The translations under genes were made by a program, and so were the position numbers. The notes beneath the pieces are model-generated. The model was not told where the DNA came from, did not search any database, and saw only the letters and a list, made by a program, of their open reading frames with translations. A DNA stretch of 64,000 bases from the NCBI RefSeq assembly GCF_003003095.1, contig NZ_PVTT01000002.1, positions 682,001-746,000 on the forward strand, written 5' to 3'. Source of the stretch: Hasllibacter halocynthiae (GTDB taxonomy: Bacteria > Pseudomonadota > Alphaproteobacteria > Rhodobacterales > Rhodobacteraceae). Within the stretch, counting starts at the first letter, position 1; each line of letters begins with the position of its first letter. Of the stretch, positions 2,121 to 47,441 are shown piece by piece.

Positions 2121-3182
2121 ATGAACCCGATTCTCCCCCTGCCGCCCCCCTCGGGTGCCGTGCCCCGAGGCGCCCCCCCCGCGGCTGGAGGCGCGACCTC
2201 GGAACCGGGCGCGGACGCCTTCGCGGAACTTGTGGAAGGGGGCGCCGAATCTGGCGCCTCCGTCCCCTCTTCGGACGCGGGCGACGCGGCTAAGGCCGGG
2301 GAGGGCGGGGCAGGAGGGGGCGGTGGGATGCCCGCCGCTCCGGCTCCAACTCGCGTTCCGGGCGGCGACGCCGAACCCCGCTCCGAGGGCGAAGCGCCCA
2401 TTGCGCGAAGTGGCGCGGCGAGCGGCGCGCCCGCGGTTCGGCCCGACCCCCCTGCAGCCGGCGGGGGGGTTGCGTCCCTTGAGGTCGCCCCATGCCGCGG
2501 GATGCCCGTCCGGAACGGGGGGGCCGCCGCCGGTCCGGGTCCGAGCGAGGCGGCCGCCGTGCCCCCCGAGGCCGCGCGAGGCGCCGCGGCCGCCGAAGGC
2601 CGCACCCGGGCCCCGCGGTCCGGGCCCTTCGCCCAGGCGCCGCGGCCGTCCGGCCCGGAAGAGATACGCGTTCGCGGAGCGGCGCCGCCCGTTCCCGGCA
2701 CGGAAGGCGCCGGAGCCGCCGCCCCGCCGGAGCCGGCCCGGGGCGACGGCCTTCGGGTCGTCGTACCCGACGCGGGCGCACCTATCGACCTTTCCGCGCG
2801 CCGGGCCGTGGCCGAAGCCGTGGTCCGCCTGAACGCCCTGGGCGGAGGGGTGACGGAGCTGCGCCTCGATCCGCCGGAGCTGGGGCAGTTGCGCCTCAGC
2901 GTCGCTCCGGCGGAGAACGGCGTCGCGGTCACCGTCGCGGCGGATCGGCCCGAGACCCTCGAGCTCTTCCGGCGCCATGGGGATCAGCTGCTGCATCTCC
3001 TCCAGCGCGAGACCGGGGGGGAGGCCACGCTCGACTTCGGGGGAAGCGCACGCGAGCGCGCGCCGCCGTTCCCGCCGGACGCAGCGGAGGGCCCGGCCCC
3101 GCCTGGCGAGGCGGCGCGGCCGGCCCCGTCCCCCATGCGGCTGATCGACCTTGCAGGCGGCGGGCTGGACCTGCGTCTCTGA
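2121..3182 (+). CDS. fliK: flagellar hook-length control protein FliK
   Basis: 353 residues. The first two thirds are low-complexity Pro/Ala/Gly/Glu, the usual flexible molecular-ruler part of FliK. The C-terminal domain, about residues 225-300, has the Flg_hook signature: ELRLDPPELGQLRLSVAP followed by VAVTVAADRPETLELFRRH and LLHLLQRE, which interacts with FlhB to switch export specificity. I use ATG at 2121; a GTG at 2106 is in frame but would add only five residues, and neither has a strong ribosome site. It is followed after 18 bp by flgD, so the two probably form one operon for hook building. Confidence 0.85.
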   Translation: MNPILPLPPPSGAVPRGAPPAAGGATSEPGADAFAELVEGGAESGASVPSSDAGDAAKAGEGGAGGGGGMPAAPAPTRVPGGDAEPRSEGEAPIARSGAASGAPAVRPDPPAAGGGVASLEVAPCRGMPVRNGGAAAGPGPSEAAAVPPEAARGAAAAEGRTRAPRSGPFAQAPRPSGPEEIRVRGAAPPVPGTEGAGAAAPPEPARGDGLRVVVPDAGAPIDLSARRAVAEAVVRLNALGGGVTELRLDPPELGQLRLSVAPAENGVAVTVAADRPETLELFRRHGDQLLHLLQRETGGEATLDFGGSARERAPPFPPDAAEGPAPPGEAARPAPSPMRLIDLAGGGLDLRL

Positions 3183-34619: not shown

Positions 34620-35462
34620 TCAGGGAAGGTGCCGGGCCAGCGCTTCGGGGTCCTCCTCGTGCAGGAGATGGCCCAGCCCGGGCAGAAGGCGGGCCTCCGC
34701 CCGGGGCAGGCTTCCGGCGAGGTCCGAGGCCACGGAGGGCGGCACGGCGAGGTCGTTCGCCCCGGCGAGGATCGTGACCTCGCACGCCACCTCGCCCAGC
34801 CGGCGCCGCAGGGGCGCGAGGCTCCAGGACGCCATCATCCGCAAGGTGCCCGACACGTGCGCCCGATTCGCGAAGAGGCGGCCGTAGTGGCGGAGCTGGT
34901 CCGCCGGGATGACCGATCCCGTCCCCTCGATCACCCGCCGGGCCGCGCCAGGCGTGGCCATGCGCGCGACGATCGGCGCGGTGAGCGGGTTGAACGCCAG
35001 CCCCTTCGCCACGAGCGGGAAGACGAGGCCCGCGAGGCCGGGGAAGTCCGCCAGGGCCGGGTTGACCAGCACCAGCCGCGCGGGCGGGACCGGCAGCGTC
35101 AGCGCGAGCTGCAGCGCCAGCGCCCCCCCGGCGGAGTGGCCGACGATCAGCTCGGGCGCCGCCCCTTCGGCGGCGAGCAGGGTGGCGAGATCCCCGGCCA
35201 TGGGAACGAGGCCGAGCCGCGCGAACGGGCCTGTCCGCGTGAAGCCGTGCCCCGGCAGGTCCGGCGCGAGGGTCCGGTGAGTCCGGGAGAGGGCGGGCAG
35301 CGCCCAGCGCCAGGAATGGCTCGCCCCGCCCGCGCCGTGCAGGAGAAGCGCGGCCGGCCCCTCGCCGGCGTCCTGGAGGTGGAACCGATGGCCCGCCGCC
35401 TGCGCCTCGCGGGAGGCACGGCGGTTGGGCCAGTCGGCCGGCAGGCCGGGCGGCGCGCTCAC
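34620..35462 (-). CDS. bchO: BchO, alpha/beta hydrolase of Mg-chelatase operon
   Basis: 280 residues of the alpha/beta hydrolase fold. The N-terminal WPNRRASREAQAAGHRFHLQ and LLLHGAGGASHSWR pattern is characteristic of BchO; the nucleophile elbow is VGHSAGGALALQLAL (about S109), and the catalytic His is in GLGHLLHEEDPE near the C-terminus. Its exact role is unknown; it is usually called a Mg-chelatase accessory protein because it follows bchD. It starts in an ATGA overlap with the bchD stop. Confidence 0.92.
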   Translation of the reverse strand: MSAPPGLPADWPNRRASREAQAAGHRFHLQDAGEGPAALLLHGAGGASHSWRWALPALSRTHRTLAPDLPGHGFTRTGPFARLGLVPMAGDLATLLAAEGAAPELIVGHSAGGALALQLALTLPVPPARLVLVNPALADFPGLAGLVFPLVAKGLAFNPLTAPIVARMATPGAARRVIEGTGSVIPADQLRHYGRLFANRAHVSGTLRMMASWSLAPLRRRLGEVACEVTILAGANDLAVPPSVASDLAGSLPRAEARLLPGLGHLLHEEDPEALARHLP

Positions 35463-37054
35463 AGCGTCTTGGCGGCGGCGGGAAGCGCGCCCGGCTCCGC
35501 CCGGGGCAGCGGCAGGTAGCGCGCGCCCATCGCCGCCGCCAGGGCGCGGAGCTGGGTCGAGGGGCGCAGCCCGCTGTCGCAGACCAGCGCGGCGATCCGG
35601 TCCCCGGCGATCAGCCGGGCGAGGCGCGCCGCGTCCTCGGCCGCGCGGACGCGGTCCGGCGGCCCCTCCAGCGGCACGTTCGCCCGCCCGTCCGTCAGGA
35701 GCGCGATCACCGGCGTCATCCCCCGCCCCCGCGCGGCGCGGGCCAGCGCCAGCGCCTCGGCGAGCCCCGCGGCCAGCGGGGTGCCGCCCCCGCCGGGCAG
35801 CCCCGCCAGCGTCCGCCGGGCCCTGACGAGCGAACGGGTGGGCGGCAGCACCGTCTCCCCCCCCTCGCCGCGAAAGGCCACGAGGGCGACGTGGTCGCGG
35901 GCGGCGTAGCTCTCGGCGAGGATCAGTTCGACCGCGCCCTTCGCCTCCGCGAGGCGCGCGGCGGCGGCCGAGCCCGAGGCATCCACGGCGAAGATCAGCA
36001 GCCGGTCCGAGCGCGATTCGTGCCGCCGCAGCCGCACGTCCTCCGGCAGGATGCGGACCTGACCGGGCGGCCCCCCCCGCAGCCGCTGCAGGGGGGCCGC
36101 GGCACGCAATGTGGCGACGAGGTCCAGCCGCTCGCCCGGCGCGATCCGGCCCGGGCGCGCGGGCAGGGGCCGGCCCCGCGCGCCGCCCTTGCGCCTCGCG
36201 CCCCGGCCCTCGCCCCTCGCGGCGCCGCGGAGGGCGAGGCCGGCGAGGAGGCCCGGCGGCAGGACGGCGCGGGCGGCGTCGAGCACCGTGTCCGGCATGG
36301 GCCCGCCCTCGGACGGGGCCTCCGGCGGCGGGGCCCGCTCCGCCTGCTCCTCCTCCTCGGACGGCGGCAGGCGGCGCGCGCGGGGGCCGAGCACAAGGGC
36401 GGCGGCGACCTCGAGGTCGGGGGCGCCGACCTCCCCCCTGGCGCGAAGCGCGGCATGGGCGCGGGCGGCGCGGTGCGCGTGGCCGAGGCGGCGAAGGTCG
36501 TCGATCCCGAGCGTCGCGGCCAACTCCGCCAGTTCCGCCAACGCCTTGTCTGGCACCGTGACGCTTCGCAGCAGGGCCCGGCCCGCGGCGATGGCGGCCC
36601 GGTCCGGCCCTTCCGCCGAGAGGTCCCCGCGCGCCGCGCCGGAGATGTCGGCGAAGAGGGCGAGCCGGGCGGCGAGGCCGGGCGGCAGGGCCTCCTCCTC
36701 CGTGCCCTCGTCGCCCGCGATCACGGTGCGGCCCCTTCCCGCGAGGCGGGCGGCGCGGGCGGGGGGGGTGCGCTCGGCCATGGGGAGGAGAAGCGTCGCG
36801 GGCGCGCCGAGGGCGCCCTGCGTCCAGACCATCCGCCCCGAGCGGAGCGTCGCGGCGGCGTCGAGCCCGCCCGTCAGCGCATCCTCAGGCGCGGTGGGCG
36901 CGAGGCGCCGCAGGGGCGGCAGCGCGGGGTCGAGCCGCGCGAGGAGCGCATCGCGCGCGGGCCCCGCCGGGCCGCGCAGGTGCAGCCCCGAGAGGCCCGG
37001 GTCGACGGCGAGGAGGTCGAGCGCCAGCGCGGCGCGCGCGAAGCCCGGCGTCAC
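35459..37054 (-). CDS. bchD: magnesium chelatase subunit BchD
   Basis: 531 residues from GTG 37054. It has a degenerate AAA+-like N-terminal half, an acidic/Pro-rich linker at about 225-250 (SEEEEQAERAPPPEAPSEGG) and a C-terminal von Willebrand A domain with a MIDAS motif (IFAVDASGSAAAARLAEAKG, about 355-374; later TDGRANV). BchD forms the platform with BchI for Mg insertion by BchH. I chose GTG 37054 because GAGGGG is 8 nt upstream, length fits, and it forms a GTGA overlap with the upstream repeat ORF; GTG 37063 and TTG 37084 are alternatives. Confidence 0.93.
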   Translation of the reverse strand: MTPGFARAALALDLLAVDPGLSGLHLRGPAGPARDALLARLDPALPPLRRLAPTAPEDALTGGLDAAATLRSGRMVWTQGALGAPATLLLPMAERTPPARAARLAGRGRTVIAGDEGTEEEALPPGLAARLALFADISGAARGDLSAEGPDRAAIAAGRALLRSVTVPDKALAELAELAATLGIDDLRRLGHAHRAARAHAALRARGEVGAPDLEVAAALVLGPRARRLPPSEEEEQAERAPPPEAPSEGGPMPDTVLDAARAVLPPGLLAGLALRGAARGEGRGARRKGGARGRPLPARPGRIAPGERLDLVATLRAAAPLQRLRGGPPGQVRILPEDVRLRRHESRSDRLLIFAVDASGSAAAARLAEAKGAVELILAESYAARDHVALVAFRGEGGETVLPPTRSLVRARRTLAGLPGGGGTPLAAGLAEALALARAARGRGMTPVIALLTDGRANVPLEGPPDRVRAAEDAARLARLIAGDRIAALVCDSGLRPSTQLRALAAAMGARYLPLPRAEPGALPAAAKTL

Positions 37055-38214
37055 GGTTGGCACCCCTCGCGCCCAAGCGGGCAAGGGGCGCGCGGTGCGT
37101 TAACCCGGCCGAAAGGCGGGCCCCTTCTAATGGGGGCATGATCGTGCCGCTCGCCCTTCTCCTTCGACGAATCGGCCCCATCGGGGGCGCCTTCTTCCTG
37201 CCTCGGCGCGAGGTCACGGGGAAGCTGCGCCCGGCGAGGGCGCGAGGCGCCGCTTCGGGGACAGGGCCCGGGGGTCCGGCGGGCAGGATCGGCGCTTCGG
37301 AGGGAGGCGGGCCGTCCGCGGGCCGGACGGCCGCTCCGGCGGTTCGGGAGGCGCGGGCCGCGCCCCGGGACGCTTCGCGCCGGTCCCGCCGCCCGTCGGA
37401 GGGCGGCATCCGCGCGGATGCCGGGCATGGCCGGATCGGGGGCGCGGCCGTTCCTGCGGACGCCTGCGGGGCGGGGGGCGATCGCCGCTCGGGTTGCCGG
37501 CCGCGCCCGCCCGCCGTCCGCCCGGGCCCGGGCGGTGATCGCGGACCCGGCGTTCTGCCGCGGCTCGGGCCGTTCGAGGTGCGGGCGATGCCCCGGACCG
37601 ACGACGGCGATTCGTGCGAAGCGCCCCCTTCCGCGGACGGTCGCCCGTTCGGGGGGCGGCGGGCCTGCCGAGCCGAGCATGGCGCGGGGCGCGGGGCGCC
37701 CCGTCTTCCGGGGCTTCGCCCGTTCGAGGGCCGATCGGTCCACCGGACCGATCGCCGCACGGCGCGCGGTTCGCTTTCTCACCCAGGGCTTCGCCCGTTC
37801 GGGGGTCGAGGGGACCGCCGGGTCGTTCGCCGGCTTCGCCGGTTCGGTCCTCCTCCGGGGCTTCGCCCGTTCGGACCTCGATCGGTCCACCGGACCGATC
37901 GCCGGCTTCGCCGAGTCGGTCCTCCTCCGGGGCTTCGCCCGTTCGGACCTCGATCGGTCCGCCGGACCAATCGCCGGCTTCGCCGGATCGGTCCTCCTCC
38001 GGGGCTTCGCCCGTTCGGACCTCGATCGGTCCACCGGACCGAGCGCCGGCTTCGCCGGATCGGTCCTCCTCCGGGGCTTCGCCCGTTCGGACCTCGATCG
38101 GTCCACCGGACCGATCGCCGGCTTCGCCGGGTCGGTCCTCCTCCGGGGCTTCGCCCGTTCGGGCCTCGATCGGTCCGCCGGACCGATCGCCGGCTTCGCC
38201 GGGTCGGTCCTCAC
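37051..38214 (-). CDS. hypothetical 24-residue-repeat protein between bchI and bchD
   Basis: A 387-codon frame exactly filling the bchI-bchD gap. It begins at GTG 38214, overlapping the bchI stop as GTGA, and ends at 37051, overlapping the bchD GTG again as GTGA. Residues 1-120 are five near-identical 24-residue units (RTDPAKPAIGPVDRS followed by RSERAKPRR), then four diverged units of 24-25 residues keeping an ER-x-x-P-R core, then Arg/Pro/Ala-rich sequence. The product would be very basic, without signal or membrane helix. No family is recognised. Against it: other frames, including one on the opposite strand with a more ordinary composition, are also open across the 72-bp repeat, so the open frame alone proves little. 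Confidence 0.38.
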   Translation of the reverse strand: MRTDPAKPAIGPADRSRPERAKPRRRTDPAKPAIGPVDRSRSERAKPRRRTDPAKPALGPVDRSRSERAKPRRRTDPAKPAIGPADRSRSERAKPRRRTDSAKPAIGPVDRSRSERAKPRRRTEPAKPANDPAVPSTPERAKPWVRKRTARRAAIGPVDRSALERAKPRKTGRPAPRAMLGSAGPPPPERATVRGRGRFARIAVVGPGHRPHLERPEPRQNAGSAITARARADGGRARPATRAAIAPRPAGVRRNGRAPDPAMPGIRADAALRRAAGPARSVPGRGPRLPNRRSGRPARGRPASLRSADPARRTPGPCPRSGASRPRRAQLPRDLAPRQEEGAPDGADSSKEKGERHDHAPIRRGPPFGRVNAPRAPCPLGREGCQP

Positions 38215-38216
38215 CC
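37789..38216. repeat. 72-bp tandem repeat between bchI and bchD
   Basis: Units start at 37789 (diverged), 37861, 37933, 38005, 38077 and 38149, exactly 72 bp apart; the last five are almost identical, and older copies at roughly 37714 and before are recognisable but degraded with 75-bp spacing. Each good unit contains an inverted repeat, CGATCGGTCC-(A/G)CC-GGACCGATCG in the first unit at 37879-37901, able to form a 10-bp hairpin. Copies differ by one to three substitutions, some of which break a stem pair. The array runs up to the bchI stop codon. Confidence 0.96.
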
Positions 38217-39233
38217 CCAGAGCTCCGTGAGGGCCCTTTCGATGCGGGCGGTGCTGCCGGCTTCGTCCAAGGGGTCGCGGCGCAGGCGGTGGCGCAGGGC
38301 GCTGGGGGCGATCGTGCGGATGTGGGCGCGGGTGATGCGCGCCTCGCCCTCCAGCGCGGCGAGAGCGCGGGCCGCCCGCAGCAGCGTCAGCTCGCCCCTC
38401 AGGCCGTCCGCGCCGACATGCAGGCAGAGCGCGGCGCCGTCGCGCAGGGCCTCGTCCGGGGTCCCGATCCCGCCGAGCGCGGCGCGGGCGCGCATGACGC
38501 CGGCGCGGGCCTTGCCGTCGCGGGCGGACCACTTGCGAAGGAACGCCGCGCGGTCCCGCTCGAACGCGTCGCGGCGGCGCACGACCTCGACCCGCTCCTC
38601 GATCGTGGGGGGGGAGGCGACCTCGACCGAGAGGCCGAACCGGTCGAGGAGCTGGGGCCGCAGCTCGCCCTCCTCGGGGTTGCCGGAGCCCACGAGGACG
38701 AAGCGCGCGGGATGGCGCACGGAGAGGCCGTCGCGCTCGACCGCGTTCTCGCCGGACTGGGCGACGTCGAGGAGGAGGTCGACGATGTGATCCTCGAGCA
38801 GGTTCACCTCGTCGATGTAGAGGTAGCCGCGGTTCGCCTGCGCCAGGAGGCCGGGGCGGAACGCCGTCTCGCCCTTCGTGAGCGCGCGCTCGACGTCGAG
38901 CGCGCCGGTGACGCGGTCCTCCGTGGTGCCCAGCGGCAGGTCCACGACCGGCGTGGGCTTCTTCACGACCCGCCGGCCCGCGCCGGACCAGGCGGGCGCC
39001 TCGGCCGCCGTGGGCGAGGAGACGGCGCAGCCCTCCGCCGCCTCGATGGGCGGCAGGAGGGCGGGCAGCGCGCGGACGGCCGTGGACTTGCCCGTGCCGC
39101 GGTCGCCGAAGACCAGGACGCCCCCGATGGAGGGGTCGACGGCCGTGAGGAGGAGGGCGCGCTTCATCTCCTCCTGGCCGACGATGGCCGAGAAGGGGAA
39201 GGGCCTGGTGGCGGAGACGGGCTGGACGGTCAT
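38211..39233 (-). CDS. bchI: magnesium chelatase ATPase subunit BchI
   Basis: 340 residues, AAA+ ATPase. It starts MTVQPVSATRPFPFSAIVGQ; Walker A is VFGDRGTGKSTAVRAL (about 41-56), Walker B is YLYIDEVNLLEDHIVDLLLD (about 140-159), sensor 1 FVLVGSGNPEEGELRPQLLDRF. BchI hexamers drive Mg insertion. It is the second gene of the leftward crtA operon, 31 bp after crtA. Its stop overlaps the GTG of the repeat ORF. Confidence 0.97.
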   Translation of the reverse strand: MTVQPVSATRPFPFSAIVGQEEMKRALLLTAVDPSIGGVLVFGDRGTGKSTAVRALPALLPPIEAAEGCAVSSPTAAEAPAWSGAGRRVVKKPTPVVDLPLGTTEDRVTGALDVERALTKGETAFRPGLLAQANRGYLYIDEVNLLEDHIVDLLLDVAQSGENAVERDGLSVRHPARFVLVGSGNPEEGELRPQLLDRFGLSVEVASPPTIEERVEVVRRRDAFERDRAAFLRKWSARDGKARAGVMRARAALGGIGTPDEALRDGAALCLHVGADGLRGELTLLRAARALAALEGEARITRAHIRTIAPSALRHRLRRDPLDEAGSTARIERALTELWG

Positions 39234-39264: not shown

Positions 39265-40149
39265 TCACGCGGCGGCCTGGGGGACGGGACGGCCGGGGCC
39301 GGGCCGGGGACCCGGCCGGGGACCGGGGTCCGGGCCGGGATGCGGGCCGGGGGCCGGGTCGGGCAGGGGGCGGCCGGGCGGCACAGGGGGGCGGGCCGGG
39401 GCGGCGAGGTCGGCGAGGTCGCGCCCCTCCCAGGTGCCGGAGGCGGCGGTGAGGGCGAGGCGGGCGTAGAGCTCCTCCGCGAACCATCCGTTCCGGCGGA
39501 CCGCCCCGATGGCCTCGGCGTGCCGGCCCGAGCGGGCGAAGCGGCGCATGGCGGCGCCGTCCGGCCAGACGGAGAAGGTGATCTGGTGCAGCCAGGGCAT
39601 CTCGCCCAGGCCGGCCTTCAGGAGGATGCCCGCATCGGGGATTCCGGGGGCGATGGCGCGCTGGCGGGCCCAGAAGCCGCGCAGGCCGCGCGCGCGGATC
39701 GTGGCGCGCGTCAGCACCGCGAGGGGGGCGCCCCCGGGCGCCGGGCCCGCGGCGAAGGGCGGGCGGCCCGACCAGAGGCCGCGGACGGAGGTGGGGGTCA
39801 TGCGCAGGAGGGCCGATTCGCGTGCCGCCGCCCGCCAGCGGGTGAAGGGGGGGCGGGCCAGCGCCCGGTCCGCGTCGGCGGCGTCGTCCCAGGCGCAGAG
39901 GATGGCCCAGACGCGGGGGTTCGGCCGCGGCGCGAAGCCGTGCCCCGAACCCGAGCCGCAGAGCTTGAAGAAGGCGAGGCCCGGCACGTGGAGCAGCGGC
40001 CAGCGCGCCGCGCCCATCTGCGCCAGCACCCAAGGCAGCCGCCCCAGGCCGAACCGGTGGAGCGACAGGGTGACGTGCCCGCCGGGGCGGCGGCGGGGCC
40101 CGTCCGCGACGGCGGGGCCGGCGGAGGAGAGGAGGTCGGCGGCGCGCAT
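39265..40149 (-). CDS. crtA: spheroidene monooxygenase CrtA
   Basis: 294 residues. Family features are VTLSLHRFGLGRLPWVLAQM (about 26-45), the FFKLCGSGSGHGFAPRPN haem-binding region, and GLGEMPWLHQITFSVWPD (about 178-195). It introduces the C2 keto group converting spheroidene to spheroidenone in oxygen. The last 45 residues are an unusual Pro/Gly-rich tail of PGP-type repeats that extends beyond the conserved core. It starts at ATG 40149 and diverges from crtI across a PpsR box. Confidence 0.93.
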   Translation of the reverse strand: MRAADLLSSAGPAVADGPRRRPGGHVTLSLHRFGLGRLPWVLAQMGAARWPLLHVPGLAFFKLCGSGSGHGFAPRPNPRVWAILCAWDDAADADRALARPPFTRWRAAARESALLRMTPTSVRGLWSGRPPFAAGPAPGGAPLAVLTRATIRARGLRGFWARQRAIAPGIPDAGILLKAGLGEMPWLHQITFSVWPDGAAMRRFARSGRHAEAIGAVRRNGWFAEELYARLALTAASGTWEGRDLADLAAPARPPVPPGRPLPDPAPGPHPGPDPGPRPGPRPGPGRPVPQAAA

Positions 40150-42936: not shown

Positions 42937-44694
42937 ATGGCGCTGGATCGGGGCGATCGGGGGGCGGGCGTCTGGCGGTCGGGGCGCGGCAAGGGCCGCC
43001 ACACGCCCAAGGGCCGCCAGTACGAGGACGAAGCCTTGGACGAGGTCCGCGCGATGCTGGGCGGCGCGCCGCGCGCGCGCGACCGGCTGATCGAGAACCT
43101 CCACCTGATCCAGGACGCCCGCGGGCACCTCTCAGCGCGGCACCTGCGGGCGCTGGCCGAGGAGATGCGCCTCTCCATGGCGGAGGTGTGGGAGGTGGCG
43201 ACCTTCTACGACCATTTCGACCCCCTGCGGGAGGGCGAGCCCGCGCCGCCCGCGCTGACGGTGCGGGTGTGCGACTCGCTCTCCTGCGAGCTTGGGGGCG
43301 CGCGGGCGCTGCGGGCCGCGCTGGAGGAGGGGGCGGACCCGTCGGAGGTGCGCGTGCTGCGGGCGCCCTGCATGGGGCGCTGCGACGCCGCCCCCGTGGC
43401 CGAGGTGGGCCACCGGCACGTGGAACGGGCCACGCCGGAGGCGGTGCTGGCGGCGGTGGAGGGCGACCACGGGCCGGTGATCCCGGACTACGAGCCGCTG
43501 GACGCCTACCGCGCGGGGGGCGGCTACGCGAAGCTGGCCGAGCTGCGCGAGGGGGGCGACTGGGAGGCGGTGCAGGACATGGTCGCGGCGTCCGGCCTGC
43601 GGGGCCTGGGCGGCGCGGGCTTCCCGTCGGGCAGGAAGTGGGGGTTCGTGCGCGCCAATCCCGGCCCCCGCCTGATGGCGGTCAACGGCGACGAGGGCGA
43701 GCCGGGGACCTTCAAGGACCGCTTCTACCTCGAGCGCGTCCCGCACCTCTTCCTCGAGGGGATGCTGATCGCCGCCTGGGCCGTCGAGGCCAGCCGCGTC
43801 TTCCTCTACATGCGCGACGAGTACCCCGCCGTGCTGGAGATCCTGCGCCGGGAGATCGCCGCGCTGGAGGGGGCGGGGATCGTCGGGCCGGGATACGTCG
43901 AGCTGCGGCGCGGCGCGGGCGCCTACATCTGCGGCGAGGAATCGGCGATGATCGAGTCGATCGAGGGCAAGCGGGGCCTGCCCCGGCACCGTCCGCCCTA
44001 CGTGGCGCAGGTCGGCCTCTGGGGGCGCCCGACCCTCGTGCACAACGTCGAGACGCTGCACTGGATCGCCCGCGTGGTCCGCGAGGGCCCCGAGGTGCTG
44101 AGCGCGCACGAGCGGAACGGGCGCAGGGGGCTGCGGAGCTATTCGGTGTCGGGGCGGGTGCGGAACCCGGGGGTGCATCTGCTGCCGGCCGGGTCCACGA
44201 TCCGGGACGTGATCGAAGCCGCAGGCGGGATGGCCGAGGGGCACGTCTTCAAGGCCTATCAGCCGGGCGGGCCGTCCTCGGGCCTGCTGCCGGCGTCGAG
44301 GGACGACGTGCCGCTCGACTTCGACACGCTGCAGGCGGAGGGGTCCTTCATCGGCTCGGCCGCGGTGGTGGTGCTGTCGGACCGCGACAGCGCGCGGGAC
44401 GCGGCCCTCAACATGCTGCGCTTCTTCGAATCGGAGAGCTGCGGCCAGTGCACCCCCTGCCGCGTGGGCTGCGAGAAGGCGGTGAAGCTGATGCAGGCCG
44501 AGACCTGGGACCATGGGCTTCTGACCGACCTCTGCGACGTGATGGTGGACGCCTCGATCTGCGGGCTGGGGCAGGCCGCCCCGAACCCGATCCGCCTGGT
44601 GATGAAACACTTCCCGGAGGAGGTGGGGGCGAAGGCCGCGGCCCTGGCGCACGGCAACTACGCCACCGACCAGTCGCTGGAGGGCGAGGGATGA
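42937..44694 (+). CDS. fdsB: NAD-dependent formate dehydrogenase beta subunit (NuoE-NuoF fusion)
   Basis: 585 residues in two parts. Residues about 35-175 are a NuoE-like thioredoxin-fold 2Fe-2S domain with ligands in VRVCDSLSCELGG and APCMGRCDAAPV. From about 200 it is NuoF-like: GLRGLGGAGFPSGRKWGF binds NADH/FMN, GAGAYICGEESAMIESIEGK follows, and ESCGQCTPCRVGCEK (about 503-517) holds a 4Fe-4S cluster. It passes electrons from the catalytic subunit to NAD+. In many Rhodobacterales FdsG and FdsB are separate genes; here they are fused. It is coupled by ATGA to the alpha subunit. Confidence 0.9.
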   Translation: MALDRGDRGAGVWRSGRGKGRHTPKGRQYEDEALDEVRAMLGGAPRARDRLIENLHLIQDARGHLSARHLRALAEEMRLSMAEVWEVATFYDHFDPLREGEPAPPALTVRVCDSLSCELGGARALRAALEEGADPSEVRVLRAPCMGRCDAAPVAEVGHRHVERATPEAVLAAVEGDHGPVIPDYEPLDAYRAGGGYAKLAELREGGDWEAVQDMVAASGLRGLGGAGFPSGRKWGFVRANPGPRLMAVNGDEGEPGTFKDRFYLERVPHLFLEGMLIAAWAVEASRVFLYMRDEYPAVLEILRREIAALEGAGIVGPGYVELRRGAGAYICGEESAMIESIEGKRGLPRHRPPYVAQVGLWGRPTLVHNVETLHWIARVVREGPEVLSAHERNGRRGLRSYSVSGRVRNPGVHLLPAGSTIRDVIEAAGGMAEGHVFKAYQPGGPSSGLLPASRDDVPLDFDTLQAEGSFIGSAAVVVLSDRDSARDAALNMLRFFESESCGQCTPCRVGCEKAVKLMQAETWDHGLLTDLCDVMVDASICGLGQAAPNPIRLVMKHFPEEVGAKAAALAHGNYATDQSLEGEG

Positions 44695-47441
44695 AGGACG
44701 TGATCGAGACCTTCGTCACCTTCGAGCTGGACGGCGCGGCCGTGTCGGTCCCCGCCGGCACGACGATCTGGGAGGCGGCCCACGGGCGGGGGCTGCGGAT
44801 CCCGCATCTCTGCCACAGGCCCGCGCCCGGCTACCGGCCCGACGGGAACTGCCGGGCCTGCATGGTCGAGGTGGAGGGGGAGCGGGCGCTCGCCGCGTCC
44901 TGCGTGCGCGAGGCGGCGGAGGGGATGGTGGTGCGCACCGCCACCCCGCGGGCCGAGAAGGCGCGGGCGATGGTGATCGAGCTTCTGGAGGCCGACCAGC
45001 CCGCGAGGGGCGTCTCGCCGGACCGGTCCTCGCGCTTCTGGGAGGAGGCGGGCGAGCGGGCCCCCTCGCGCTTCCCGGCGATGGAGGAGGGGCGCGCGCC
45101 CCCCTGCGACCGGAGCCACCCTGCCATGGAGGTGGACCTGGGCGCCTGCATCCAGTGCGGCCTCTGCGTGCGGGCCTGCCGCGAGGTTCAGGTCAACGAC
45201 GTGATCGGCATGGCCGGGCGGGGGGCGGACACTTGGCCCGTCTTCGACTTCGCCGACCCGATGGGCGCGTCCACCTGCGTGGCCTGCGGCGAGTGCGTTC
45301 AGGCCTGCCCCACGGGCGCGCTGATGGAGGCAGCGATGGTCGGCGACGGCGCCGATTTCGACACGGAGACGAAGTCGGTCTGCCCGTTCTGCGGCGTGGG
45401 CTGCCAAGTGTCGCTGAGGTCGAAGGGGGACCGGATCGTCGCCGTGGACGGGGTCGACGGGCCCGCGAACGAGGGGCGGCTCTGCGTGAAGGGGCGGTTC
45501 GGTTTCGACTACGTCCACCACCCGCACCGGCTGACGAAGCCCCTGATCCGGCGGGAGGACGCGCCCGCGAAGGGGCTGAACGTGGACCCCGGCGACTGGG
45601 GCGCCGCGTTCCGCGAGGCGAGCTGGGAGGAGGCCCTGGAGAGGGCCGCCGCCGGGCTGCGGGGGCGGGGGCGCGAGGTCGCGGGGTTCGGGTCGGCCAA
45701 ATGCTCGAACGAGGAGGCGTACCTCTTCCAGCGGTTCATCCGCGAGGGGTTCGGGCACAACAACGTCGATCACTGCACGCGGCTCTGCCACGCGTCCTCG
45801 GTCGCGGCCCTCCTGGAGAACGTCGGGTCGGGGGCGGTGACGGCCACGTTCAACGAGATCGAGAACGCCGACTGCGCCATCGTGATCGGCGCCAACCCGG
45901 TCGAGAACCATCCCGTCGCGGCCACCTACCTGAAGCAGTTCGCGGCGCGCGGCGGCACCCTGATCGTGATGGACCCCCGCGGGCAGGCGCTGGCCCGGCA
46001 CGCCGCCCACATGCTGCAGTTCCGGCCCGGCGCGGACGTGGCGCTGCTGAACAGCGTCATGCACGTGATCGTGGAGGAGGGGCTGGTCGACCGGCAGTAC
46101 GTCAAGGGGTTCACCGAGAACTGGGCCGCGCAGGAGCGGCACTTGGCCGGGTTCGCGCCCGAGCGGGTCGAGGGCCTGACCGGCATCGCGCCGGATGCCG
46201 TGCGCGCGGTGGCGCGGGCCTTCGCCGGGGCGCGGGCGGGGATGATCTTCTGGGGGATGGGCGTCAGCCAGCACGTTCACGGGACGGACAACGCGCGCTG
46301 CCTGATCAGCCTCGCGCTGATGTGCGGGCACGTGGGGCGGCCAGGGACGGGGCTGCACCCCCTGAGGGGGCAGAACAACGTCCAGGGCGCCTCGGACGCG
46401 GGGCTCATCCCGATGTTCCTGCCGGACTATCGCAGCGTGGCCGACCCGGATGCGCGCGGCGGCTATGCCGCCCTCTGGGGCGCGGAGGTCGCGCCCGAGG
46501 CGGGGCTGACGGTCACGGAGATCATGGATGCGGTCCATGCCGGCGGCGTGCGGGCGATGTACGTCCTGGGCGAGAACCCGGCCATGTCGGACCCCGACCT
46601 GGCCCACGCGCGCGGCGCCCTGGCGAAGCTGGATCATCTGGTGGTGCAGGACATCTTCCTGACGGAGACGGCGAACTACGCCGACGTGATCCTGCCGGCG
46701 AGCGCGTTCTACGAGAAGGCCGGCACGGTCACGAACACCAATCGGCAGGTGCAGATGGGACGGCCCGCCGTGCCGCCACCCGGCGAGGCGCGCGAGGACT
46801 GGCGCGTCATACGGGACCTGGCCAACGCCTGCGGGCTGGGCTGGACCTACGAGCACCCGCGCGAGGTGTTCGCGGAGATGGCCGGCATGATGCCGTCCCT
46901 CGCCAACATTACCTGGGAGCGGCTGGAGCGGGAGGGGGCGGTGACCTATCCGTCCCTCACGCCCGAGGACCCCGGCCAGCCCATCGTGTTCGGGGACGGC
47001 TTCCCGCGCGAGGGGGGGCGGGCGCGCTTCGCCCCCGCCGACGTCGTCCCCCCCGACGAGCTGCCCGACGCCGAGTATCCGATGGTGCTGACCACGGGCC
47101 GGCAGCTCGAGCACTGGCACACGGGGTCCATGACCCGGCGGGCGAGCGTGCTGGACGCGGTGGAGCCGGAGGCGAACTGCTCGCTGCACCCGTCGACGCT
47201 GCGGCGGCTGGGGGTCGAGGCGGGCGGGATGGTCACGCTGGAGACGCGGCGCGGGGCGGTGACGCTGATGGCGCGGGCGGACCGGGCGGTGGCGCCCGAC
47301 ATGGTGTTCCTGCCCTTCGCCTACGTGGAGGCGGCGGCGAACCTGCTGACGAACCCCGCGCTCGACCCCTATGGCAAGATACCGGAATTCAAGTTCGCGG
47401 CCGTCCGCGCCTTCGCCGCGAAGGGCGCCGCGGCGGAATAG
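44691..47441 (+). CDS. fdsA: formate dehydrogenase alpha subunit (Mo/W-bis-MGD)
   Basis: 916 residues. The N-terminal part is a NuoG-like domain: 2Fe-2S ligands in LCHRPAPGYRPDGNCRACMV, then ferredoxin clusters CIQCGLCVRACREVQ and CVACGECVQACPTGAL. The catalytic domain starts with CPFCGVGCQVSL (4Fe-4S) near residue 232; the metal ligand is the cysteine of DHCTRLCHASS (about C368), so it is a Cys-type and not a selenocysteine enzyme. Later segments GQNNVQGASDAG and HWHTGSMTRRA are family features. It oxidises formate to CO2. Maturation genes (fdhD, mob genes) are not in this window. Confidence 0.93.
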   Translation: MKDVIETFVTFELDGAAVSVPAGTTIWEAAHGRGLRIPHLCHRPAPGYRPDGNCRACMVEVEGERALAASCVREAAEGMVVRTATPRAEKARAMVIELLEADQPARGVSPDRSSRFWEEAGERAPSRFPAMEEGRAPPCDRSHPAMEVDLGACIQCGLCVRACREVQVNDVIGMAGRGADTWPVFDFADPMGASTCVACGECVQACPTGALMEAAMVGDGADFDTETKSVCPFCGVGCQVSLRSKGDRIVAVDGVDGPANEGRLCVKGRFGFDYVHHPHRLTKPLIRREDAPAKGLNVDPGDWGAAFREASWEEALERAAAGLRGRGREVAGFGSAKCSNEEAYLFQRFIREGFGHNNVDHCTRLCHASSVAALLENVGSGAVTATFNEIENADCAIVIGANPVENHPVAATYLKQFAARGGTLIVMDPRGQALARHAAHMLQFRPGADVALLNSVMHVIVEEGLVDRQYVKGFTENWAAQERHLAGFAPERVEGLTGIAPDAVRAVARAFAGARAGMIFWGMGVSQHVHGTDNARCLISLALMCGHVGRPGTGLHPLRGQNNVQGASDAGLIPMFLPDYRSVADPDARGGYAALWGAEVAPEAGLTVTEIMDAVHAGGVRAMYVLGENPAMSDPDLAHARGALAKLDHLVVQDIFLTETANYADVILPASAFYEKAGTVTNTNRQVQMGRPAVPPPGEAREDWRVIRDLANACGLGWTYEHPREVFAEMAGMMPSLANITWERLEREGAVTYPSLTPEDPGQPIVFGDGFPREGGRARFAPADVVPPDELPDAEYPMVLTTGRQLEHWHTGSMTRRASVLDAVEPEANCSLHPSTLRRLGVEAGGMVTLETRRGAVTLMARADRAVAPDMVFLPFAYVEAAANLLTNPALDPYGKIPEFKFAAVRAFAAKGAAAE

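Follow-up and report, generated by a model that had tools for sequence, protein, structure and literature searches.

A tandem array of a REP-like, apparently mobile repeat on the stop codon of bchI in Hasllibacter halocynthiae

Organization of the bchI-bchD region

We analysed a window of 64,000 nucleotides from Hasllibacter halocynthiae (C2:682001-746000 of the 2.78 Mb genome, G000), in which bchI and bchD, encoding two subunits of the magnesium chelatase, follow each other on the reverse strand. The two genes are separated by 1,156 bp if bchD starts at the GTG at 37054, which is its probable start judging from the sequence and the N-termini of relatives, and by 1,126 bp if the alternative TTG at 37084 is used. 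Much of this gap is occupied by seven recognisable units of 72-75 nt on the operon strand, at 37707-38213, which abut head to tail and have lengths divisible by three (72, i.e. 24 residues, and 75). The features are listed in Table 1.

Table 1. Coordinates of genes, repeat units and unit 1 helices in the window
Feature	Position	Strand	Identity to commonest unit	Basis and remarks
bchI, Mg-chelatase subunit I	38211..39233	-		Pfam Mg_chelatase and AAA_lid_2
Unit 1, 72 nt, from the bchI stop	38142..38213	-	69/72	R1 97.5 bits
Unit 1 helix P1, 5' arm, directly after TGA	38206..38210	-		Structure counts; coordinates from alignment
Unit 1 helix P1, 3' arm, one A-C mismatch	38161..38165	-		Alignment
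Unit 1 helix P3	38167..38189	-		Perfect match; the 10-bp inverted repeat of the earlier note
Unit 2	38070..38141	-	72/72	R1 100.6 bits
Unit 3	37998..38069	-	70/72	R1 98.4 bits
Unit 4	37926..37997	-	69/72	R1 98.6 bits
Unit 5	37854..37925	-	71/72	R1 98.4 bits
Unit 6, diverged, P3 broken	37782..37853	-	59/72	R1 69.8 bits
Unit 7, 75 nt, starts GGGTGAG, different P2	37707..37781	-		R1 76.6 bits; 60 identical
Two probable decayed 75-nt units	37557..37706	-		Local alignment score against shuffles
Candidate bchD start, GTG	37052..37054	-		Purine-rich GAGGGG ahead; N-termini of relatives
bchD, Mg-chelatase subunit D	35459..37054	-		Pfam VWA_2 and AAA_lid_2

Tandem Repeats Finder reports one array in the gap (37707-38212, period 72, 7.0 copies, 89% matches). 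An earlier note, made from the sequence alone, had described a tandem array beginning at 37789; the array is real, but both this program and our alignment of the units extend it further to the left. The note had also placed it directly against the bchI stop codon, and more exactly unit 1 contains that codon, TGA 38213-38211 being its first triplet. The stop codon is native to bchI, since the BchI C-terminus is level with those of its relatives (19 sequences aligned). The 10-bp inverted repeat that the note had seen in each unit is indeed there, perfect in four units, with a T-G pair in one and a mismatch in another, but it is only one helix (P3) of a four-helix unit and is lost in the unit at 37782-37853. 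In unit 1 a GAA directly after the 3' arm of P1 faces the stop codon. This unit starts with TGAGGACC on the bchI stop and units 2-6 start with GGAGGACC; the sequence upstream of the unit is GGGGUGAG.

The units nearest to the stop codon are fresh and the distal ones old, decay rising with the distance from bchI. Unit 7 is perhaps an older, separate copy. The stretches at 37632-37706 and 37557-37631, with 43 and 48 identical positions out of 75, respectively, are on their sequence probably two decayed units. Their score was matched by 3 of 300 shuffles of the stretch itself and by 15 of 300 when the shuffling covered all of the remaining gap, and an unfiltered covariance search of the operon strand found them weakly (37580-37646, 8.4 bits, E 0.16). 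Beyond 37557 the similarity to the repeat is at chance level (158 of 300 shuffles). A pattern scan of 36900-38400 gave no terminator-like and no sigma-70-type promoter-like site.

The gap is a derived state according to the comparison with relatives

We compared 84 bchI loci, i.e. 80 named loci and four others, in 82 of which bchD lies downstream of bchI. After one value was dropped (L104, where the start of bchI had been taken as its end), 81 distances remained, and the extrapolated distance between the two genes ranges from -43 to +145 nt. A possible bchD start lies at -4 in 35 of these 81 loci, in an ATGA or GTGA overlap, which is the usual arrangement for coupled translation. None of the 81 loci with both genes readable has a gap like the one in the window, which agrees with the earlier note's statement that bchI and bchD are adjacent, with no such array, in characterised Rhodobacter clusters. 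No credible copy of the element was found in the 80 named loci (904 kb, searched with the first model; one match at E 0.98). The gap of about 1.16 kb is thus, by sequence comparison, a derived state. In nine of 83 loci (84 less L104) bchI ends in GGGGTGA, followed by G in six of them, which is the same context as at the edges of the element.

A dispersed repeat family in Rhodobacteraceae

The unit is found well beyond bchI. BLASTN found further copies in the same genome, and a covariance model, R1, which we built from 11 units, returned 12 matches (E 1.3e-5 or lower) that fall into five places. Seven of the matches are the units at bchI. An HlyD-type gene is followed by two more, a leucyl aminopeptidase-type gene and glyS by one each, and the twelfth lies at the 3' end of a cob(I)alamin adenosyltransferase-type gene, these four names coming from reading the translations and not from a profile search. 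The unit lengths outside bchI include 62, 70, 71, 74 and 76. In a set of 198 family genomes with each genus represented once, at least 73 carry the element (E up to 0.01), a lower bound because 25 candidates were scored per genome. With more candidates scored, 12 genomes picked for having copies have 3 to 56 each. The search elsewhere in the genome and in relatives that the earlier note had proposed thus returned four other loci here besides these family genomes. By the note's own criterion, the occurrence of the unit at unrelated loci, this makes it a general repeat family. A draw across the class gave matches in six of 289 genomes (E up to 1e-4): three from the family, ours included, and three that belong to two other families.

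Copies also occur on plasmids of named Rhodobacterales, in 52 and 63 records with two consensus queries, respectively, 38 of them from Pseudosulfitobacter in each case. A search of phage records with one consensus copy gave no match, and we rejected a phage origin on this result. On one Pseudosulfitobacter plasmid (L210) an annotated gene of the DUF6330 family at 2827-3099 (-) overlaps an element copy on the opposite strand, and the annotated protein may thus consist in part of translated repeat. The genome with 56 copies (G206, 2.2 Mb in 340 contigs) has many of them at contig ends, which suggests a recent expansion that breaks the assembly.

A common fold of four helices is shown by the covariation of the aligned copies. 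The element is 62-80 nt long and consists of an outer helix P1, which begins right after the TGA and encloses two hairpins, P2, which is optional, and P3, which is strong, and of a small hairpin P4 (GGGCGRAGCCC) behind it. P2 is absent from a 62-nt subfamily. In a first set of 58 matches (56 distinct) 96.1% of the cells are paired, double changes occur in 18 of 24 pairs, and the covariation score is 0.464 versus 0.131 in shuffles. The second set, with 84 matches (77 distinct) in 73 fetched loci, has 97.8% of cells paired and 324 double-changed cells, and its score of 0.493, versus 0.125 after shuffling, was reached by none of 500 shuffles; sliding the alignment reduced the score to 0.02-0.06. 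These alignments are fitted to the model and retain the relatedness of the copies, and the effect is large. Single units fold modestly better than shuffles (z -0.4 to -2.2) and the whole array folds strongly (z -6.5), a value that mixes units, so the argument for the fold is carried by the covariation. On the coding strand G-T pairs exceed A-C mismatches (80 versus 32; 44 versus 27 when P2 is left out), and the balance therefore leans towards the coding strand as the folded one, as RNA or as single-stranded DNA.

Many copies begin on a stop codon

From 159 matches (84 plus 75) we set aside 27 tandem followers, merged duplicates among the remaining 132 first units and dropped two with fewer than 150 bases ahead, which left 125 distinct copies. 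Their first triplet is TGA in 104 and TAA in four. In 47 copies a long coding frame ends on this triplet as its in-frame stop; such a frame has at least 80 codons and is the best of the three frames under a codon model trained on bchI and bchD; in two more the fit to a gene stop is one base off. Another 61 copies have TGA or TAA without a long frame and 15 have neither, so a stop codon is not required. GGRG precedes the first triplet in gene-stop copies and in the others alike. The octamer GGRGTGAG is rare outside the elements of the same loci (17 cases), and it contains a gene stop in one of the 15 that could be classified.

P1 can be extended outward over the stop triplet. TGA stands opposite GAA in 91 of the 125 copies, giving a U-A pair and then tandem G.A/A.G pairs, and a flanking G-C pair is present in 114 of the 125. 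Eight copies have TGA opposite TCA, which is fully Watson-Crick; in all of them the next base is not G, and the combination is absent from the 79 TGA-G copies (Fisher 4e-6). Copies that lack a stop codon have TTC/GAA (four), TCC/GGA (three), TTG/CAA (two) and other combinations. Shuffling the partners over this triplet is not decisive, with 162 Watson-Crick pairs observed versus a mean of 156 and a maximum of 162 in 2000 shuffles, because most copies share one combination.

The end of frr is a further site of interest. In the best 30 of 193 genomes with a match, frr always ends in TGA, and in 20 of them in CAGGTC-TGA. Elements of different make stand directly after it in five of the 30 loci (L303, L315, L318, L327 and L331), and in four of the five the 3' arm of P1 is complementary to the frr end (e.g. 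TTTGATC with GATCAAA). Given different elements with arms that match the gene end, either elements have settled on this stop codon more than once, or the site is an ancient one whose arms have changed along with the gene end.

A different placement is seen at the cob(I)alamin adenosyltransferase-type gene in three genera (L146 in our genome, L205 in G184 and L271 in G065). The element overlaps the last codons there and the stop codon falls inside P2; at L205 the tandem units repeat the end derived from the gene.

Indications of mobility

Copies inside transposase genes, together with an empty site, point to mobility of the element as far as sequences can tell. At one and the same spot, copies interrupt frames of IS5-type transposases in L212, L216, L218 and L219, and L260, L278 and L299 have the same interruption judging by their flanks. 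Another copy interrupts an IS66-type tnpB (L221), and identical copies lie between the two frames of IS3-type elements (L202, L243 and L244 in G199; L285-L287 in G081). The types of all these insertion sequences were assigned by reading translations. At L186 the sequence hinted at a nested insertion, but not distinctly enough for us to claim one. From the sequences, the shared insertion spot in several genomes is best explained by the spread of the carrier. Three Ruegeria genomes have a reversed copy in the spacer between gcvH and gcvP, and two other Ruegeria genomes are without it. The cleanest empty site comes from Leisingera thetidis compared with L. caerulea: the site reads CTCGGGGG-AGCGCGAGGGGGC without the element and CTCGGGGG-TGAGG...GAGCCC-GGAGGGGGC with it, so that an insertion is evident, with no target-site duplication. 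For frr and nusG the congeneric comparison of empty sites covered a single genome per genus. The arms of P1 are the sole inverted ends of the element, and its 3' boundary is not sharply defined.

IS3-type elements usually use frameshifting between their two frames. The copies within them (1501-1562) sit right on the stop of the first frame, and a structured repeat at this place may matter for the expression of the second frame.

A survey of the 198 genomes for Y1 transposases tied no transposase or other mobilising enzyme to the element. Such genes occur in 17 genomes and not in that of H. halocynthiae. The element is present in 11 of these 17 versus 62 of the 181 others (Fisher p 0.018), and no copy was found in the fetched flanks of four Y1 loci. 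This co-occurrence is weak and came with no linkage at these loci, and we do not favour mobilisation by a RAYT or other Y1 enzyme.

Origin and possible effects of the array

We consider it probable that the array goes back to a mobile, structured repeat of REP-like kind, which came to lie on the stop codon of bchI, was amplified there and has probably uncoupled the translation of bchD. In an ancestor with overlapping bchI and bchD, one copy would have inserted on the stop codon of bchI. GTGA is present at both edges today, at the bchI stop and at the bchD start, as needed for an insertion in an overlap that preserves both genes. Later copies and tandem duplication or slippage at the edge near the stop would then have built the array while older units decayed. 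As a consequence bchD would no longer be coupled to the translation of bchI and would depend on an independent start some 1.16 kb downstream. Directly after the bchI stop, the GC-rich stems should also block 3' exonucleases, so that the crtA-bchI message would outlast that of bchD; the array would perhaps shield the upstream message in this way. The origin is most simply selfish.

The earlier note had offered two explanations, a device peculiar to the bchI-bchD pair and a local neutral minisatellite. Occurrence at four unrelated loci in this genome and in so many genomes of the family speaks against both as they were worded. A dedicated attenuator or processing device would suit the location between two subunits of one complex and the strong fold of the whole array, but the element also stands behind unrelated genes, it is missing from the 80 named bchI loci, and no terminator-like site was seen; we regard such a device as unlikely, while an influence of the array on the relative amounts of BchI and BchD through processing, attenuation or protection is possible on sequence grounds. 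Slippage of a neutral sequence with no family behind it would account for near-identical 72-bp units in one run and for the gradient of decay. It leaves the dispersed, covarying copies unexplained, which makes it very improbable, and what survives of it is the tandem growth at bchI. In our estimate the least probable reading is a coding repeat of 24 residues per unit, in the bchI frame past the stop and expressed by read-through or as a separate protein. Its units at bchI have lengths divisible by three and open frames, but open frames are expected at this G+C and the lengths elsewhere do not keep to three. We ruled it out on two results: units 1-5 have no synonymous excess in any of six frames (10 synonymous versus 20 other changes in the bchI frame), and no Pfam match was found.

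An alternative hypothesis could be that the element is a functional cis-acting RNA at stop codons, with a role in termination, in the release of ribosomes or in the protection of 3' ends, and kept by selection, and that the array tunes BchI against BchD. The strong covariation, which extends to the pairing over the stop triplet, the varied elements with matching arms at the frr stop, and the excess of G-T pairs over A-C mismatches on the coding strand would all fit. However, the spread is patchy among the family genomes, copies are found in both orientations between genes and within transposase genes, and half of them are away from a recognisable gene stop; we hold this alternative to be possible and rather doubtful. 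The mobile, REP-like repeat remains our preferred reading.

More tentatively, and with real doubt, we speculate that the family is a new class of RNA-level element, common among Rhodobacteraceae, with a conserved helix that includes the stop codon, spread guided by pairing, and a spacer that replaces the coupling of bchI and bchD. If this is true, a helix with UGA opposite GAA (tandem G.A) or UCA would make folding compete with termination, and the same base pairing would let the spreading element recognise stop contexts of the GTGA type. A fold that includes the stop codon of its host would link the targeting of a mobile element, the termination of translation and the definition of 3' ends, and a large bacterial family would offer many natural copies for comparison. 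At the bchI-bchD locus nature has separated two genes that overlapped and were presumably coupled in translation, which makes the need for coupled synthesis of the two Mg-chelatase subunits testable.

Relation to known elements

The element resembles REPs in how it works and lives, but we do not class it with them. REPs, tagged GTAG or CGTC, are described in the consulted sections of PMC3733652 and PMC2817692 as small, dispersed palindromic repeats that lie mostly behind coding regions and sometimes in genes; their GTAG termini can supply stop codons, and in the GTAG type the repeat flanks an associated RAYT (Y1) transposase gene. Compared with REPs as described there, the present family has the same preference for positions downstream of coding regions (47 of 125 copies start on the stop of a long frame). 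A REP is a single stem-loop of 20-40 bp with an unpaired GTAG or CGTC tag, whereas our element has three or four covarying helices in 62-80 nt and a 5' GGRGTGAG whose triplet, mostly TGA, is paired within P1. We do not file it as a REP because neither the single stem-loop nor the unpaired tag is found.

The element also resembles the small mobile non-autonomous repeats and MITEs of bacteria in being short, dispersed, structured and apparently moved in trans. A MITE would have terminal inverted repeats with a target duplication, which are not evident here, and no parent transposon was found. The ends of IS200/IS605-type elements recognise their target by base pairing with the element. The 3' arm of P1 similarly pairs with the sequence ahead of our element, non-standard pairs being allowed, but there is no Y1 transposase in our genome or in 62 of the 73 element genomes. 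In the puf operon of Rhodobacter and in REP-protected mRNAs, stable stems stand behind the upstream cistron. The stems at bchI likewise directly follow the upstream cistron, in an operon of the same pathway as puf, but they belong to a dispersed family in a tandem array. The seven units at bchI are tandem copies at one locus, as in a minisatellite, yet the unit is also dispersed, and the units abut without the unique spacers of a CRISPR array.

Two further candidates were rejected: the CcsR/cuckoo-type RNAs of R. sphaeroides, as the family consensus lacks the CCTCCTCC-like junction, and a bacterial SECIS, as the ends of bchI and frr are in the same position in relatives that lack the element. 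No description of the family was found in the open-access literature searched, in Rfam 15 or in the consulted part of PMC2864571. Rfam 15 gave no overlapping match for the array in the window at E up to 1; in a scan of 10 other loci the one overlap with a copy was a weak match to CRISPR-DR29 on the opposite strand (L195, 25.2 bits with a cut-off of 39).

Neighbouring genes in the window

The gene upstream of bchI, at 39265-40149 (-), was read as crtA by its position and has a repetitive tail rich in Pro, Gly and Arg (GPHPGPDPGPRPGPRPGPGRP); low-complexity repeats at 39290-39405 give several tandem-repeat rows over this tail. Directly after the carotenoid genes, at 42937-47441 (+), reading of the translations indicates formate dehydrogenase-like frames with NuoE- and NuoF-like subunits.
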